Below, in pieces: positions 13,163 to 46,178 of a DNA stretch of 64,000 nt. The notes under the pieces are model-generated. The model did no database searches and was not told the origin of the DNA. It worked only from the letters and a program-made list of their open reading frames with translations. Made by a program: the position numbers and the translations under genes. The DNA lies in the NCBI RefSeq assembly GCF_004359375.1, contig NZ_CP034726.1:496001-560000 (forward strand), in the 5' to 3' direction. The stretch comes from Acetilactobacillus jinshanensis. GTDB taxonomy: Bacteria > Bacillota > Bacilli > Lactobacillales > Lactobacillaceae. Within the stretch, counting starts at the first letter, position 1, and every line of letters starts with the position of its first letter.

Positions 13163-14656
13163 TTAATCTTCAACACGATGCTTCTTGAGATCATAATCAT
13201 AGAAGATCCAAGCACACCCACCGAATAATACGGGTCCGATGAATGTCCAGAAGTCATCAATATAGTCGTGTGTCAATAATGGCTGGATAAAGTTAAAGAC
13301 AATTCCAAAGATTAAGACAATCAAGACCATAACGGTTGATGACCAAATGACCCTCTTACTGTGATAAATTTCAAATGGTCGGTTCATGTTAATAATCTTC
13401 TTAAAGAATGGGAATGCAAAAACAATTAATACGTATTGCAACGTCGTGGATACATTATTCATATCTGTCAAAATCTGATAGAACATCTTAGCGCTTGAGC
13501 CACCAAATGAAGTGAAGAATAGTACAACACTCATTAAAGCCGTCTGAATCCACATAACATGGTTTGGCATCCCATGCTTATTAAGATGCAATGCCCACTT
13601 AGGCCATAATTTAGTTGATGACCCAAACATAAATGATTTGATTGGTGAATAAAGTAGAACGAAGAAACCACCAATTCCACCAGCTAAGGTAGCAAAAGCT
13701 TCAAAACGAACTAAGAAATGACCAAAGGCTAATGTGGTTCCAGGAGCCCAGTTTAAACTACGACCTAAAGCGAAGCCAACGTTGGCCATTAAAACATACA
13801 TAACGTTACCTAAAGTAACTGACTTGCGACCCATAATGTGAGCCCAATTGATACTTACACCACAGAGAAGAATAGATGCTGTATATAGAACAACCATGAT
13901 GACCATGGAGATCATAACTGCACGCGGGAAAGTCTTCTTAGGGTTCTTTAAATGATTAATAACACCGCATAATGATTCAATTCCAGCGTAAGCAAAGATC
14001 GCGTATACAACGAACGAAATCATTGAAGCGGTGTGTCTAAACTGTGGATTCGGTGGAACGATAAAACTCTTGAAACCCGTGATTGGTTGAGCTAAATGGC
14101 CATGGTTAGTAAAAATCAAAATGATTGATAAAGTACAAAAGATTACCACTAATAAAGTTGCCATAAAGCCACCGATGGAAGCAATCCATGTAATTGACTT
14201 TAAACCTTTAATTGCTAACCATGTAGCAAAGATTAGAAAAATAATGGATAAGATACCTAAAGTTTCGGTGCTATCTAGTCCCAAAATACTCCATTGTTGA
14301 GTGGTATCTTTCCCAAAGATCATAGCAGACCAGGAAATCCAGCTATTGGGAATCCAGAAAATATTGGTAATGATCCAAGCTAATAGCCAAATAAACGTTC
14401 CAATAAATGCCCAACGTTCACCGATTGACACTTTAATCCAAGAATAGATTCCACCACTTTTATCACTTAAAGCAGAACCATATTCAGCAAACATAAATGA
14501 TGTTGGGATGAAGAAACAGAACGCACCAACTAAATACCAAATAATACTAGCGTAGCCCATTTGTTCATATGCCGTAGCGGTATTAACAAAGCCAAATGCG
14601 GTAGCAAGAATCATTAGAACTAAGCTAGTCAAAGAAATGTTGCCATCTTTTGACAT
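13163..14656 (-). CDS. APC-family amino acid transporter under a lysine riboswitch
   Basis: A 497-residue permease with twelve or more membrane segments. It resembles the YjeM/GadC-like branch (LTSLVLMILATAFGFVNT near the N-terminus, then AYAGIESLCGVINHLKNPKKTFPRA). It starts at ATG 14654-14656 with GGAGG upstream. The leader is an L-box, so lysine is the most likely substrate, as for other L-box-controlled APC permeases such as the YvsH group; substrate by regulation is inference. Monocistronic, with the bidirectional terminator at 13103. Confidence 0.88.
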   Translation of the reverse strand: MSKDGNISLTSLVLMILATAFGFVNTATAYEQMGYASIIWYLVGAFCFFIPTSFMFAEYGSALSDKSGGIYSWIKVSIGERWAFIGTFIWLLAWIITNIFWIPNSWISWSAMIFGKDTTQQWSILGLDSTETLGILSIIFLIFATWLAIKGLKSITWIASIGGFMATLLVVIFCTLSIILIFTNHGHLAQPITGFKSFIVPPNPQFRHTASMISFVVYAIFAYAGIESLCGVINHLKNPKKTFPRAVMISMVIMVVLYTASILLCGVSINWAHIMGRKSVTLGNVMYVLMANVGFALGRSLNWAPGTTLAFGHFLVRFEAFATLAGGIGGFFVLLYSPIKSFMFGSSTKLWPKWALHLNKHGMPNHVMWIQTALMSVVLFFTSFGGSSAKMFYQILTDMNNVSTTLQYVLIVFAFPFFKKIINMNRPFEIYHSKRVIWSSTVMVLIVLIFGIVFNFIQPLLTHDYIDDFWTFIGPVLFGGCAWIFYDYDLKKHRVED

Positions 14657-14733: not shown

Positions 14734-14972
14734 AAAAAGCCATCATTTTAAGATAGCTTAAAACGATGGCATCAATTTTACCTACTTAACATATAGTCCA
14801 ACGTTCAAAGCTCTCCGCAGTTTATCTACGACAGTTCGCGATCTATTGAATCACGCCCCAGATCACCAGTAACCACTTTTACTAGCACCTCGGCAACTTT
14901 CCCTTTCAGCTAACTTCTTCACTAAAGTAGTAGTTCAATTAACCTACTCTTGTCAGTTGCAACCTCTTTGAT
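14734..14972 (-). promoter_or_regulatory. Lysine riboswitch (L-box) with terminator
   Basis: On the minus strand the leader carries L-box signatures in order: AGAGGTTGCAACTG, AAGAGTAGG, GCTGAAAGGGAAAGTTGCCG, GGTTACTGGTGATCTGG and ACTGCGGAGAGCTTT. An expression platform follows with the hairpin GCCATCGTTTTAAG...CTTAAAATGATGGCTTTTT (14734-14772). This should shut off the permease gene when lysine is plentiful. The recognition rests on sequence pattern; a covariance search was not run. Confidence 0.88.
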
Positions 14973-15106
14973 TTTTATATTAAATATATTATAACTTTAT
15001 GGTATTTTTGTCAAACCAATTTATTGATATTGACTATCAATGTTTAACTTTATATAGTTAAATTATACGTAAATTTAACTAATGTTCGTTTAAAGGAGCA
15101 ATTACT

Positions 15107-31055: not shown

Positions 31056-32424
31056 TTATTTATTCTGATTCGGCTTAGCATGTTTAATCCCAATCCCGGT
31101 TACTCCACTTAAGATGGAGAAGATTGGTGATAACAGACTAAAGAAGACGAATGGCATGTAGTCTAATACAGGTACGTTCAAGGCGTTGGCAACGAATGCT
31201 CCGGCAACGCCCCATGGTACTAAGTAGTTAATTACGGTACCACCATCTTCTAGAGCACGACTTAAGGCAACTGGTGCTAAGCCAGCTTTCTTGAACGGTT
31301 CGTTAAATGCGGCTGCTGGTAAGATGACGGATGAGTACTGTTCACCGATAAAGACGTTAACACCGATACAGGATAGAATAACGGCAGTAATTAAAGCACC
31401 GGTACTGTGTAAGTGACTAACTAACGGAGTCATAACGGCCTTGATAATACCTAGGTGCATTAATAATCCACCTAAGGCCAAAGCAATGATGACTAACGAA
31501 GCGGTGCTCATCATGTTCATGATGCCACCACGGCTAAGTAATGAATCAACAGCTTTGTGACCGGTCGTGGATTTGAAACCGTTGATAATGATGTTGTTGA
31601 TGTTAGCTAACTTGAAACCGGGATGTTTAATAAAGATCATAATGCTCGAAACGGTAACGTTAATAAATAACGTCGAAACGGTTGGAATTCTTACCCAGGC
31701 ACAGATGAACAGTAAAGCGATCGGTACGATTGCCCACCAGGTAACGTTGAAATTCTGTTCTAAGATGGCGATCGTTGTTCGAACACTGTGTAAACTAGCG
31801 TTGGTGTTACCGCCACCGATGAAGCAGAAGATAATGAACGTACAAATCAATGATGTGATCAATTAAATCAGCACCAACGACGGCAGCTGATAAGTTATCG
31901 GTTGCTGATAACGGTGAAGACTTATCACCAAAAATGGCACCACATAATACGGCACCGGCAACCATGGCTGGATCGATGTGCATCGTTAAGCCCATCCCCA
32001 TGAAGGCAACACCTAAGGTTGAAATTACGGTAAAGGCACTACCAATGGCAGAACCAACGATTGCGGTAACGATGAAGACCGATGGTAAGAACCAACGAAT
32101 GCTGATCAAATGGAACCCAAAGACCATCAAACTTGGGATCACACCGGCAGCGATCCAAGTCCCGATTAAAGAGCCAATCAGAATGAAGATCAGTAATGGG
32201 ACAATCCCGTTCTTAATCCCAATAATGAAACCTTCGTCGATGTCATCCCAGCTGAAGCCGCGAAGCTTCGTCCATAAAATGATCATCATGATTCCGGCCA
32301 TAATCGGTACTTCTGGTGGTAATTTAAAGCCAATTACACTAACACCGATAATAACTAGAACCATTAACAGAATTAATAAACCTTCACCAAAGTGAATTTG
32401 CGGTTTTGAATTTTCTTTATCCAT
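31056..32424 (-). pseudogene. NhaC-family antiporter (probable tyrosine transporter), frameshifted
   Basis: Two overlapping frames (31807-32424 and 31056-31862) together make a full NhaC-type protein of about 455 residues. The first half has FKLPPEVPIMAGIMM and SPLSATDNLSAAVVGADLIDH, the second has YSSVILPAAAFNEPFKKAGLA and YLVPWGVAGAFVANAL. The frame breaks near 31845-31862, just after ADLIDH. There is no homopolymer at the break. NhaC-like genes under Tyr T-boxes were predicted to be tyrosine transporters by comparative genomics. This copy is broken unless the shift is an assembly error or programmed. Confidence 0.82.
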
Positions 32425-32565: not shown

Positions 32566-32805
32566 AAATCGCCTCAATTATTCTTTCAAATAATTGGGAC
32601 GATCAGTTATTAATAACCGCGGTACCACCCAGATTAGCAGGTAACTACTCACTCAAATAGATGATAACGGTTCTATGATTTCCGAACATCAACACTCACC
32701 GTATTTTGAGCAGCGACCCTGCCCGGTTCACAGCAAACCACCGGTTCTCTGACGTTCAAGCCGCTTCTCTACTAGAAATGAATTTCACGATTACTTATGA
32801 ATTTT
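32566..32805 (-). promoter_or_regulatory. Tyr T-box leader
   Basis: The minus-strand leader has the T-box core GGGTGGTACCGCGG, an AGAGAAGCGG-type stem I start and a distal GGTGGTTTGC...GAACCGGGC region. A candidate specifier UAC (Tyr) lies at plus-strand 32701-32703 in AAAATACGGTGAG. The terminator GTCCCAATTATT...AATAATTGAGGCGATTTTTT follows. Uncharged tRNA-Tyr should bind and allow read-through into the NhaC-like gene and tyrS. Confidence 0.92.
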
Positions 32806-42128: not shown

Positions 42129-43424
42129 TTATGGGTTTAACCGGTTCATTAATCTTGGGAATGGAATACACTGACGAATGTGGTTCTGGTGAGTGATCCA
42201 GGCTAAGAAACGTTCTAAGCCTAAGCCAAAGCCAGAATGCGGAACACTACCGTACTTACGTAAGTCTAAGTACCAGTCGTACATCTTAGGATCCTGGCCA
42301 CTTTCCTTAATCTTCTTTAATAGGTAGTCGTAATTAGTTGAACGTTCAGAACCACCAATAATTTCACCGTAACCCTGTGGAGCGATACAGTCGGCACAGA
42401 TTACCTTTCGATCATCGTCCGGATCCGGTTTCATGTAGAATGGCTTAGCACTCTTTGGATAGTTACATACGAAGCACGGCTTCTTGAAGTTTTCACCGAT
42501 GCAAGTTTCTTCAGGAGAACCAAATGGTTCACCCCACTTGATGTGTAAGCCGTTCTTATGGAATAACTTAATGGCATCATCATAACTAATGCGTGGGTAT
42601 GGCGTCTTGGTACAAGCCTTTAAGTCATCTAACGGCCGGCCTAATAACTTCAGTTCATACTGACAATGATCAAGGATACTCTTAATCATGTAGGCGATAT
42701 AATCTTCCTGAACCTTTAAGCTTTCGTCCTGGTGACAAAATGCCATTTCAGGTTCGATCATCCAAAATTCGGATAAGTGGCGACGGGTCTTGGATTTACT
42801 TTCACGGAACGTTGGTCCAAATGAATAAACCTTACCAAAAGCTGCGGCACCAGCTTCTTCATAAAGCTGACCACTTTGTGATAAGTAAGCATCTTCACCA
42901 AAGTATTCACAATGGAATAAGTCGGTCGTGTTTTCTGGTGCGTTGGCGGTAAAGATTGGTGCATCGAACTGAACGAAACCGTGCTTATGGAAGAAGCGGT
43001 AGGTAGCACGTTTAGCTTCATCACGAATTCGTAAAATAGCCCAAGGTTCTTTATGACGGATCCATAAATGACGATGGTCTAATAAGTAGTTAATGTTGTA
43101 CTTTTCATGAGAAATTGGGTAGTCATGAGATTTGTCGATCATCTTGATGTCTTCAACCTGGATTTCGTAACCAAATGGTGATCGTTTATCGGCATCGATA
43201 GTCCCGATAACCCAGAAACTTGATTCCTGTCGCAGGTGTTCGGCTAAATCAAAGATCTTCGGATCGACCTTGTTTTTCTTAACGATTCCCTGGAAAAATG
43301 CGGTCCCGTCACGTAACTGTAAGAACGCAATCTTACCTGAGCCACGTTTGTTAGTTAACCAACAACCAATTTTAACTTCTTCGCCAACGTGTTCCTTGGA
43401 ATCAGCAATACAAATTCGTTCCAT
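42129..43424 (-). CDS. asnS: Asparaginyl-tRNA synthetase
   Basis: A 431-residue class IIb synthetase. The N-terminal OB fold ([21 protein letters not shown]) binds the anticodon. The catalytic domain has motif 2 [25 protein letters not shown] and motif 3 [13 protein letters not shown]. An AGAGGAG ribosome site precedes ATG. It is the only gene after a tRNA-Asn pair, an Asn-rich leader and an attenuator (43463-43901), so its expression should rise when charged tRNA-Asn is scarce. Confidence 0.96.
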
Positions 43425-43462: not shown

Positions 43463-43697
43463 TAAAAAATCCTCACAACTAATTGATTCTCAGCTGTGAG
43501 GATTTCACTTTAGTGTTGTCACTATTGAAAAATAACATCTACACAGCCGATTGATGCCGTCTGTGCAGATCCATTCATTGATTTAAGAAAGTATTCTGGT
43601 GTTTACACAGACGCTAATAATTCAAATTTGAATTTAGATTTCGATTCAGATTTGAATTATTAGCGTCATCGATAATGCTTAAACTAATTAAAGACAT
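43463..43697 (-). promoter_or_regulatory. Asparagine-type leader-peptide attenuator of asnS
   Basis: After the leader ORF stop, minus strand, come four pairing segments. CGTCTGTG (starting at the last base of the stop) pairs with CACAGACG eight for eight. The CACAG of segment 2 pairs with CTGTG in segment 3. Segment 3 CGGCTGTG pairs with segment 4 CACAGCTG. Segment 4 is the 5' arm of the terminator ATCCTCACAGCT...AGTTGTGAGGATTTTTT (43463-43504). A ribosome stalled at Asn codons favours 1:2 plus 3:4 (read-through); one reaching the stop covers segment 1 and favours termination. Confidence 0.88.
43614..43697 (-). CDS. Asn-rich leader peptide of asnS (27 aa)
   Basis: A 27-codon ORF with AAGGAG 9 bases before ATG. 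After MSLISLSIIDDA the rest reads NNSNLNRNLNSNLNY: eight Asn in fifteen residues, all AAT codons. It starts 20 bases after the 3' end of the nearer tRNA-Asn gene. This codon bias next to asnS is far from chance and marks it as the sensor of the attenuator. Confidence 0.9.
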   Translation of the reverse strand: MSLISLSIIDDANNSNLNRNLNSNLNY

Positions 43698-43717
43698 TGA
43701 TGACAACTCCTTATTAA

Positions 43718-43790
43718 CTGTCCCAGATGGGCTCGAACCACCATCCGTCCCAGCAAACAACTGGGCGTTCTACCATTAGACTACAGGACA
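43718..43790 (-). tRNA. tRNA-Asn (GTT), copy 1
   Basis: Acceptor TGTCCTG/TGGGACA, D arm GTCTAATGGTAGAAC, anticodon stem CCCAG/CTGGG with loop TTGTTTG (anticodon GTT), T arm GGTGG/CCATC and discriminator G73, the identity base for AsnRS. CCA is not encoded. Second of two tRNA-Asn genes in the asnS transcript. Confidence 0.95.
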
Positions 43791-43828
43791 ATGATGAATA
43801 TGTAATAATTGGGAAGCTGAACTTCCAA

Positions 43829-43901
43829 CTGTCCCAGATGGGCTCGAACCACCATCCATCCTGGCAAACAACCAGGCGTTCTACCATTAGACTACAGGAC
43901 A
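43829..43901 (-). tRNA. tRNA-Asn (GTT), copy 2
   Basis: Same cloverleaf as copy 1 but with anticodon stem CCTGG/CCAGG, a compensated change. The spacer to copy 1 contains GGAAG...CTTCC, a likely processing hairpin. A promoter lies at 43956-43986 upstream. Confidence 0.95.
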
Positions 43902-43955
43902 ATAATAAGGATAGCCGAACCGGTTATCTTGCAACCGATCTCATCGACTACACTT

Positions 43956-43986
43956 ATTATATTAACATCATTATTTTATGATGCAA
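43956..43986 (-). promoter_or_regulatory. Promoter of the tRNA-Asn/asnS transcript
   Basis: On the minus strand TTGCAT is followed by TAATAT at 16 bases (or TATAAT at 19), about 55 bases before the first tRNA-Asn. I see no other promoter or terminator between tRNA copy 1 and the leader ORF. Confidence 0.6.
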
Positions 43987-44095
43987 GGGAAATGTTGAGA
44001 TTTATTAATAAATTTTCAATTTATTATTCTCAAATTGTTTCAATTTTGTTTACTATCTATATTTAAGGCTAATAAATGGTGTTAATCCGATCAAA

Positions 44096-45619
44096 TTAGC
44101 CTAAGAAATGTCTTAAGAGACCCTGACGATTGATTAACCAGGTGATCGTCTTGGAATCAGTTGCGTTGATTAATTCAGAGGCTAACTGACATTCTTTAGC
44201 TTCGGATGAATTCTTTGGACCGGGCTGAATACCAAAGGTCTTCGTAATCCCCTGAACATCCTTTTCGACTTCTTTCCAAGCGGAGTTCTTGGCTTCTAAT
44301 TCATTTAAGGCACTCTGACTAAAGTAATGCATCAATAATTCAAAGTCAGCTTTCATGTCAGGATAGTACTTCATAAGAACGGCCTTTTCATGATCACTTA
44401 ATTTAGCTAAGGTTTTACCAACACCTAAGATTTCGGGCGGAATACCAACGGAATAGAACGAGCCACTGTAAGTAATGGCACGAGGCATCTTGAAGCCATC
44501 GACATCACGAGAGTAGCTTAGGATCCCGACCGTTGGGTGACGGTAACGACGCTTTGGGAAGGAACTAAAGACGGGCTGTAAGTCTTTGACCAATGGATCT
44601 AAGGTCTTGTGGTATTCAATGCTGGATTCCTTAGCAATCTTGATCAACGTTTTTTCGTCAGCTTTCGGAATGACCTGGAAATCATTGTGCTGTAAGTTAT
44701 GACGTAAGTGTTTAATCGCGGGTTTAACGACCCTTTCTAATGGGTAATCATAACGGAATGCTGATTGAGCAGTCGCGGTCTTTAATCCTGGATATTCACG
44801 GGTGTAACGATCGATCCGAACCGGTGATAAACCACCACGGAAGATCGTGCTGCCACTACCGGCAATTGGGAAGATCGGCATATGAATCTGGTGTGAGAAC
44901 TGACCAATCCGAGTTAACGCAATCTTGTTACCAAGAATGCTGTTAAGGAAGCCGTTGCCTAATGCTGTATCAGAACACGCTAAGAAGACTCGCATGTACT
45001 TAAGGTGACGATGGAAATGTTCGTGGTACATCTTGATGTAATCAGTTAAGATCTTCGGGATGCTTAGTTGAACGTCGAAGTTTTCGAATAACGGAATCAT
45101 GCCAATGTAAGGATTATTCTTATAATGGCCCTTGCTAAAGCTTTCGGTCTTATACTTAGCTAAACTTTCGAACTTTTCCTGAGTGATAATGATCTGTTTA
45201 GCATTTTGGGTCATTGGTAAAATGGCTTCGATCGATGGCCGGTTAAAATGCAAATCATGAGTAAAGTCTTCGGCAGTCAACATGGTCGTCATGGCCTGCA
45301 TAATGTTGTAGCCTGGTTCCTGCCAAATGTTTGGGAACCGGAACGTTAGGAATTTATCTTTACCCAACGGGTGCTTCTTAAAGAAGTCGTAGTGATCAGC
45401 AATTAAATGGTCTAGGACGGTACCATCGGCATACTTACCTTCCCAGTCCCACATGGATTCATCTGTATCTAAGGTCTTGAAGTCTTCGTAAGCTTCCTTC
45501 ATTTCGTTAAAAGAGTTAACCATAGGACTCTTCTGGAAAAATGGAGCTCGCGCGTTATCTGGATGCTGCGAACCCATTACGTTTGGGATCTTACGACCAA
45601 TTTCTTCACTCATAACCAT
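44096..45619 (-). CDS. ppcA: Archaeal-type phosphoenolpyruvate carboxylase
   Basis: A 507-residue enzyme, the short PpcA type rather than the 900-residue bacterial form. It opens with RKIPNVMGSQHPDNARAPFF and carries GHYKNNPYIGMIPLFENF, FLACSDTALGNGF and GSGSTIFRGGLSPVRIDRY. It carboxylates PEP to oxaloacetate, the carbon source for aspartate. AGGAGG precedes the first ATG. Sparse distribution: known from archaea, Clostridium, Leuconostoc/Oenococcus and some lactobacilli. It is preceded by tRNA-Asn genes and a Asp/Asn-rich leader with attenuator. Confidence 0.93.
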   Translation of the reverse strand: MVMSEEIGRKIPNVMGSQHPDNARAPFFQKSPMVNSFNEMKEAYEDFKTLDTDESMWDWEGKYADGTVLDHLIADHYDFFKKHPLGKDKFLTFRFPNIWQEPGYNIMQAMTTMLTAEDFTHDLHFNRPSIEAILPMTQNAKQIIITQEKFESLAKYKTESFSKGHYKNNPYIGMIPLFENFDVQLSIPKILTDYIKMYHEHFHRHLKYMRVFLACSDTALGNGFLNSILGNKIALTRIGQFSHQIHMPIFPIAGSGSTIFRGGLSPVRIDRYTREYPGLKTATAQSAFRYDYPLERVVKPAIKHLRHNLQHNDFQVIPKADEKTLIKIAKESSIEYHKTLDPLVKDLQPVFSSFPKRRYRHPTVGILSYSRDVDGFKMPRAITYSGSFYSVGIPPEILGVGKTLAKLSDHEKAVLMKYYPDMKADFELLMHYFSQSALNELEAKNSAWKEVEKDVQGITKTFGIQPGPKNSSEAKECQLASELINATDSKTITWLINRQGLLRHFLG

Positions 45620-45651
45620 AACATTTTCCTCCTAGTAATTTATCAAAGCAT

Positions 45652-45879
45652 TAAAAAAGCCGCACAGCTTTTCTACTAAGCCATGCGGTTTGATTTCGTG
45701 TTATATATGTTAGTCACGATCCACAAGACCTAGTATTCGGGTCTGTGCGGATCACATTTGGATTAATATCTATATAATTCACACAGACGTTAAAGATTTG
45801 ATTCTGAATCCATCTTGGTATTCAGATTGTCATCCTTAACGTCGCGTTTAACTAATAACAAGCGACTAATGACTAACAT
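45652..45879 (-). promoter_or_regulatory. Asp/Asn-type leader-peptide attenuator of PEP carboxylase
   Basis: Directly after the leader stop, minus strand, GTCTGTGTG pairs with CGCACAGAC. That second segment (GATCCGCACAGACC) also pairs with GGTCTTGTGGATC. TTGTGG in the third can pair with CCGCAT, the 5' arm of the terminator CCGCATGGCTT...AAGCTGTGCGGCTTTTTT (45652-45690). The design and even the CGTCTGTG first segment match the asnS attenuator. The 3:4 pairing is weaker here than in the Ala and Asn cases. Confidence 0.78.
45790..45879 (-). CDS. Asp/Asn-rich leader peptide of PEP carboxylase (29 aa)
   Basis: A 29-codon ORF with AAGGAG 8 bases before ATG. The first half is MLVISRLLLVKR; the second half reads DVKDDNLNTKMDSESNL, with four Asp and three Asn in seventeen residues. 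It starts 37 bases after the tRNA-Asn copy 3. The enzyme behind it supplies oxaloacetate for aspartate and asparagine, so the codon content fits end-product control. Confidence 0.82.
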   Translation of the reverse strand: MLVISRLLLVKRDVKDDNLNTKMDSESNL

Positions 45880-45916
45880 AACCAAAACTCCTTAAATTTT
45901 AACAAACAACTAGAAA

Positions 45917-45989
45917 CTGTCCCAGATGGGCTCGAGCCACCATCCATCCTGGCAAACAACCAGGCGTTCTACCGTTAGACTACAGGACA
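45917..45989 (-). tRNA. tRNA-Asn (GTT), copy 3, with T-loop change
   Basis: As copy 2 (anticodon stem CCTGG/CCAGG) but the T loop starts CTCGA instead of TTCGA (position 54 is C) and the D loop has C for T. Anticodon GTT and discriminator G are intact. Position 54 is nearly invariant in bacterial tRNAs, so this copy may fold or be modified poorly. Confidence 0.9.
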
Positions 45990-46029
45990 ATAATGAAGGT
46001 GTCATAATTTGGGAAGCATCAACTTCCAA

Positions 46030-46102
46030 CTGTCCCAGATGGGCTCGAACCACCATCCATCCCAGCAAACAACTGGGCGTTCTACCATTAGACTACAGGA
46101 CA
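46030..46102 (-). tRNA. tRNA-Asn (GTT), copy 4
   Basis: Identical design to copy 1 (anticodon stem CCCAG/CTGGG, standard TTCGA T loop). First gene of the second tRNA-Asn/leader/PEP carboxylase transcript. The spacer to copy 3 again has GGAAG...CTTCC. Confidence 0.95.
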
Positions 46103-46148
46103 ATAACTAGTGAACAATATGAGTAAGACATATCACTTTGTACACTTT

Positions 46149-46178
46149 TTATAATAGAGCAACGAAATTAAATGTCAA
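46149..46178 (-). promoter_or_regulatory. Strong promoter of the tRNA-Asn/PEP carboxylase transcript
   Basis: On the minus strand a consensus TTGACA (46173-46178) is followed at 16 to 18 bases by TATTATAAA, about 47 bases before tRNA-Asn copy 4. No terminator is seen between the tRNAs and the leader ORF. Confidence 0.75.

Follow-up and report, generated by a model that had tools for sequence, protein, structure and literature searches.

The window considered here is the whole stretch of DNA that was analysed, 64,000 nt from the 1.62-Mb genome of Acetilactobacillus jinshanensis (Lactobacillaceae; contig C1, NZ_CP034726.1, positions 496001-560000). It contains two units of common layout, both on the minus strand, in which a pair of tRNA-Asn(GUU) genes is followed by a leader open reading frame (ORF), a his-type multi-hairpin attenuator, and a gene. 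In the ppcA unit, a promoter (TTGACA-16-TATTAT, 46151-46178) matches the consensus at 11 of 12 positions in a region where a similar number of promoter-like sites is expected by chance. Downstream lie a first tRNA with a CCCAG anticodon stem (46029-46103; 39.8 bits in Rfam), a spacer with a GGAAG..CTTCC hairpin (45991-46028), and a second tRNA with a CCTGG stem and C54 (45916-45990; 37.4 bits, the lowest score in the genome). The leader ORF MLVISRLLLVKRDVKDDNLNTKMDSESNL (45790-45879) has AAGGAG at 45888-45893 and precedes an attenuator (45653-45843) and ppcA, which encodes an archaeal-type PEP carboxylase (44096-45619; TIGR02751, 466 bits).

The asnS unit has a promoter candidate, TTGCAT-19-TATAAT (43956-43986), then a CCTGG-stem tRNA (43828-43902; 42.9 bits), a GGAAG..CTTCC spacer (43792-43827), and a CCCAG-stem tRNA (43717-43791; 39.2 bits); ARAGORN detected all four tRNAs. 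The leader ORF MSLISLSIIDDANNSNLNRNLNSNLNY (43614-43697, with AAGGAG at 43707-43712), an attenuator (43464-43667), and a gene for an asparaginyl-tRNA synthetase (42129-43424; NF003037, 550 bits) complete the unit. From the tRNA 3' end to the leader ATG there are 20 nt in the asnS unit and 37 nt in the ppcA unit, and a site scan found no terminator-like site in this interval in either unit. The four tRNAs, the two leaders, the attenuators sharing CGTCTGTG, and the genes are thus all where an earlier note on this DNA had placed them, and its reading of tRNA, leader, and attenuator as parts of one unit appears sound, given the short gap and the absent terminator. As to its assignment of a promoter to each unit, the ppcA promoter has the 11/12 match, and the asnS promoter is a candidate seen in the sequence, with an over-long spacer and missed by the scan.

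Two further regulatory elements were seen on the minus strand of the window. A lysine riboswitch (14800-14976) precedes an amino-acid permease-like gene (13163-14656), and a T-box match of 69.7 bits, under the Rfam cut-off (32592-32787; C1:528592-528787), lies upstream of an Na+/H+ antiporter-like gene split into two overlapping frames (31056-32424).

Variant tRNA-Asn genes and a second asparaginyl-tRNA synthetase

The earlier note overlooked that these tRNAs are not ordinary tRNA-Asn and that the asnS gene is a second copy. A census of all 69 tRNA matches in the genome located two ordinary tRNA-Asn genes outside the window, at 147751 and 325849, and the window was therefore rejected as the sole source of tRNA-Asn. 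The four window tRNAs share the anticodon loop UUGUUUG, with U37 and G38, and are the only ones among the 69 with a pyrimidine at position 37, all other own tRNAs having a purine. The usual loop (CTGTTAA in the genes), with its purine 37, is found in the two ordinary copies and in all 16 other tRNA-Asn seen, and in none of the four. They also carry a C12xA23 mismatch in the D-stem and account for four of the five lowest scores in the genome (37-43 bits), the fifth belonging to a tRNA-Ser at 40.2 bits. The anticodon GUU, U1-A72, G73, and G18G19 are all retained, and the anticodon with G73 constitutes the bacterial Asn identity set (PMC9976931).

These properties bear on the proposal of the earlier note that each transcript supplies the tRNA-Asn with which the cell works and also monitors how well this tRNA is charged. 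The intact identity elements agree with it, but the two ordinary genes elsewhere, together with the U37, the C12xA23 mismatch, and the low scores of the window tRNAs, make it unlikely. Because the ordinary genes exist and the window tRNAs carry these anomalies, the ordinary tRNA-Asn species probably decode the leaders.

The window tRNAs are 58% identical to the ordinary tRNA-Asn of the genome, no better than to unrelated own tRNAs, and a vertical origin from the ordinary genes was consequently rejected. Their nearest cellular relatives (73-74%) are tRNA-Asn found in two genomes from a single related genus, on indirect evidence probably Fructobacillus, and these were the only genomes with matches besides the own genome among 398 family genomes; no match was found beyond the own genome in 399 class genomes. 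The 78.7% match to tRNA-Asn of Bacillus Herelleviridae phages is at most suggestive of a phage origin; there was no match for a plasmid origin, and an exact-pattern scan of viral contigs found none. The asnS-unit spacer resembles the Fructobacillus-type tandem tRNA-Asn spacer, as judged by alignment scores against shuffles. In one genome of a related genus (G289, C11:68937-69240), a triple tandem tRNA-Asn array has hairpin spacers resembling those of the window, and a sister species (G040) has a single copy in the same place. A role of the variant tRNAs in cell-wall bridge formation was also considered and rejected, as the genome has no match to a FemAB-type transferase (PF02388).

The other asnS gene (C1:1130909-1132198) is 72% identical to the window copy and lies in a dinG-like/asnS/dnaD-like arrangement (gene names by inspection), with neither a tRNA nor a T-box upstream. 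As this is the copy in the ancestral context, the window gene was rejected as the housekeeping one, and we refer to it as asnS2. The two copies are sisters in the tree with 100/99 support, on branches of 0.56 (asnS2) and 0.17 (housekeeping). The window gene is thus a lineage-specific second copy evolving about 3 times (3.3) faster than the housekeeping asnS. Among 160 columns that 58 other sequences conserve, it departs at 14, versus 7 for the housekeeping copy. The departures confined to it include positions 107, 109, 110, and 113, E350Q, and AE to ES at 208-209, which changes motif 2 from FRAE to FRES and replaces its Glu by Ser. A genome of another genus has an independently duplicated asnS (G013:C1:499500-503500) with a strong T-box upstream (112.7 bits); this extra copy of separate origin suggests the same logic with another sensor.

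The fast evolution of asnS2 and its altered motif 2, the low tRNA scores, U37, the C12xA23 mismatch, and the C54 of one copy could also indicate decay, with the tRNAs as pseudogenes, asnS2 as a degenerating duplicate, and the cassettes as relics. We regard this as quite improbable, since asnS2 remains an intact ORF of 431 aa scoring above the AsnRS equivalog cut-off (NF003037, 549.7 bits versus 414). Moreover, the tRNAs are 90-99% identical between the units, against widely diverged leaders, and the changes in their anticodon stems compensate each other at two pairs.

A tentative alternative, which we hold to be possible though doubtful, is that AsnRS2 and the variant tRNAs form a dedicated, co-evolved pair. 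Its charging would be partly separate, its role would lie outside bulk translation or in starvation-specific decoding, and it would be switched by an Asn leader on the same transcript. The departures specific to AsnRS2 are concentrated in two places, 107-113 and motif 2 (208-209), and the variant tRNA differs in the D-stem and acceptor stem. In class IIb enzymes, we take regions like these to be close to the D-stem and the acceptor end of the tRNA.

Homology of the two units and their distribution

The regions downstream of the tRNAs align between the two units with a score of 108, compared with 28 +- 4.7 and a maximum of 55 in 1000 dinucleotide shuffles, and this alignment spans the ribosome-binding site to the terminator. 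Because the leader and attenuator regions are homologous to this degree, duplication of the cassette behind the asnS2 and ppcA units, as the earlier note proposed, is well supported by the sequence comparison. The inter-tRNA spacers are homologous too, their common GGAAG..CTTCC giving an alignment score of 51, higher than all 2000 shuffles. In the promoter regions, a score of 38 against 28.6 +- 5.0 in shuffles makes homology not demonstrable.

Each pair combines one CCCAG-stem and one CCTGG-stem tRNA in swapped order, as previously noted. Between copies that share a stem, 1 or 2 of 73 positions differ; between positional counterparts, 4 and 7 do. The swapped order would fit an ancestral array of at least three copies trimmed differently in each unit, or gene conversion. 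The subsequent adoption of the cassette by a second gene, also part of the original reading, is supported because ppcA directly follows asd in three relatives. In a Leuconostoc fallax-like genome (G007), an ordinary tRNA-Asn lies divergently, 231-305 bases upstream of ppcA.

No tRNA was found upstream of asnS at any of 69 loci in 68 other genomes, nor did the other 397 family genomes contain a DNA match to the cassette. The earlier note had named such an absence of tRNA-leader linkage in close relatives as evidence against its reading. The absence shows a lineage-specific arrangement rather than a refutation, because the genomes compared include no other member of the same genus; among the matches listed, no named same-genus relative exceeded 64%.

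Leader peptides, alternative pairings, and a model of regulation

Both leader ORFs are preceded by an AAGGAG ribosome-binding site and contain codons for the presumed sensed amino acids, more weakly enriched in the ppcA leader. The asnS2 leader has 8 Asn in 27 codons (8/26 after Met, p = 1.4e-5). The ppcA leader, with 3 Asn and 4 Asp in 29 codons, is not significant for Asn alone (3/28 after Met, p = 0.13); for Asp and Asn together the count is 7 of 28 (p = 0.015). All seven fall within the last 19 codons, at codons 13-28 (p = 0.0014, for a stretch picked after inspection).

Six segments, A to F, were recognized in each attenuator, E:F being the terminator. They lie at 43650-43667, 43606-43627, 43558-43571, 43536-43549, 43489-43505, and 43464-43478 in asnS2, where A pairs with B over 18 perfect base pairs, and at 45832-45843, 45780-45797, 45740-45753, 45718-45734, 45675-45688, and 45653-45670 in ppcA. 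The helices A:B, B:C, C:D, D:E, and E:F have energies of -25.7, -16.2, -16.4, -20.6, and -21.7 kcal/mol in asnS2 and -24.7, -18.1, -16.9, -19.7, and -16.4 kcal/mol in ppcA. All five occur in both units, and the mutually exclusive sets are balanced, with B:C+D:E versus C:D+E:F at -36.8 versus -38.1 kcal/mol in asnS2 and -37.8 versus -33.3 kcal/mol in ppcA. According to the alignment, the pairings are kept in both units despite sequence divergence, in a scheme that rests on two sequences. UUAUUUUU, a tract missing from the ppcA copy, comes after the asnS2 C:D hairpin (43536-43571, minus strand), and this hairpin might serve as an early, weak terminator of its own.

It is important to consider that the two units behave differently when folding is modeled. 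In ppcA, the predicted terminator probability is at most 0.31, and mostly below 0.1, with the ribosome on codons 9-26, and rises to 0.54-0.97 at codons 27-30. In asnS2, the equilibrium model gives a terminator probability of at least 0.94 at every ribosome position; the antiterminator is the minimum-energy state only briefly, at nascent lengths of 224-245, as RNA polymerase passes E. Since equilibrium folding favours the terminator throughout, antitermination in asnS2 would depend on kinetics, and the case for a switch there draws on kinetics together with the homology to the ppcA unit.

We consider it fairly probable that the window encodes two operons under Asn-responsive attenuation, each beginning with variant tRNA-Asn genes and having an attenuator that doubles as the tRNA operon terminator. 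For this model, we infer co-transcription, leader translation, stalling, and the processing and charging of the tRNAs. Each promoter would drive the two variant tRNA genes, the leader ORF, the attenuator, and then the gene, and the variant tRNAs would be made constitutively by each unit. Once the tRNA 3' end had matured, a fresh 5' end would lie beside the ribosome-binding site of the leader, and the pairings A:B, C:D, and E:F would alternate against B:C and D:E. When Asn-tRNA is plentiful (for ppcA, Asp- and Asn-tRNA), the ribosome would run to the stop codon, which lies on segment B, C:D would form together with E:F, and the transcript would end after the tRNAs, so that the attenuator would also be the terminator of the tRNA operon. 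When charging falls, the ribosome would stall over segment A, B:C and D:E would form, and RNA polymerase would continue into asnS2 or ppcA. Read-through into asnS2 would add charging capacity, and read-through into ppcA would supply oxaloacetate for Asp and Asn synthesis. We counted in favour of the model that asnB is present in the genome and that AsnRS and PEP carboxylase fit Asn supply.

Other regulatory arrangements were weighed against this one. A T-box was rejected as the cassette sensor, as no covariance-model match was obtained in either cassette at the Rfam gathering cut-off or even at E up to 1. The tRNAs and the leader-gene units could instead be separate transcripts with their own promoters, adjacent by chance, and a 9/12 promoter-like site (45923-45896) does overlap the tRNA-leader junction of the ppcA unit. 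With about 9.6 such sites expected by chance in the region, the tRNA and the leader ATG only 20 nt apart in the asnS2 unit, and the arrangement kept in both copies, this explanation is very improbable. Similarly remote is operator mimicry as in Escherichia coli thrS, in which the tRNA-like domains would stay in the leader, bind AsnRS or AsnRS2, and regulate the unit. What recalls that system is the position of divergent tRNA-like structures immediately before a synthetase gene; these domains, however, do not extend over the ribosome-binding site of the gene but stop 20-37 nt short of a separate leader ORF, and the ppcA unit has them too.

Comparison with known systems

If the favoured model is true, a classical leader-peptide attenuator would control a synthetase gene in a lineage using T-boxes for that task. 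This attenuator would also be in physical linkage with tRNA genes whose specificity it senses, and a copy of it would serve a gene of central metabolism. The locus would then show how a tRNA operon terminator can become a regulated switch and provide a compact natural example in which a synthetase and its tRNA diverge together.

The cassettes are like ribosome-mediated attenuators of the his, pheA, trp, and pheST type in having a leader ORF with the sensed codons, a U-tract terminator, and alternating A:B/C:D/E:F versus B:C/D:E helices. They are unlike them in belonging to a T-box-using Lactobacillaceae genome, in one case preceding a synthetase gene, and in having tRNA genes that would come first in the transcript. 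A comparative study from 2005 found that Firmicutes mostly use T-boxes for synthetase genes, with none known to use classical attenuation (PMC1262725), though later work may differ; we found no asnS leader-peptide attenuator in the literature searched. T-box leaders likewise switch on a synthetase when charging is poor. The present genome has 26 T-box matches, and at least nine of the downstream genes, among those tested, were synthetase genes by NCBIfam; examples are leuS, valS, pheS, hisS, glyQ, serS, ileS, thrS, and alaS. Unlike these leaders, the cassettes have no T-box match, and sensing would be by the translating ribosome.

The tRNA-Gly(CCC)-T-box-argS arrangement of Lactobacillaceae also places a tRNA gene just upstream, on the same strand, of a charging-sensing leader. 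Here, about 20 nt separate this tRNA from the argS T-box downstream of it (C1:1277986-1278244, minus strand), and visual inspection showed no terminator in the interval. The tRNA was found upstream of argS in 6 of 28 other genomes (L261 being without a detected T-box motif), and the full arrangement occurs here and in no fewer than five related genera. Since tRNA-Gly(CCC) precedes the argS T-box here and in several genera, the mere placement of a tRNA gene at the head of a leader that senses charging has other examples in the family. That tRNA, however, is ordinary and not cognate to its gene, and its sensor is a T-box.

The non-proteinogenic tRNA-Gly of Staphylococcus and the tRNA-Other of Bacillus cereus are, like the window tRNAs, divergent species present in addition to the ordinary isoacceptors (PMC4052509, PMC3399842). 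In contrast to them, the variants described here keep G18G19, occur without FemAB, and are linked to their own synthetase paralog. Such linkage of a second synthetase to a second tRNA type is known among duplicated synthetases from PylRS2/tRNA-Pyl2 (PMC9437257); in the present case, the second synthetase is a recent paralog of the housekeeping AsnRS, and its orthogonality is only putative.
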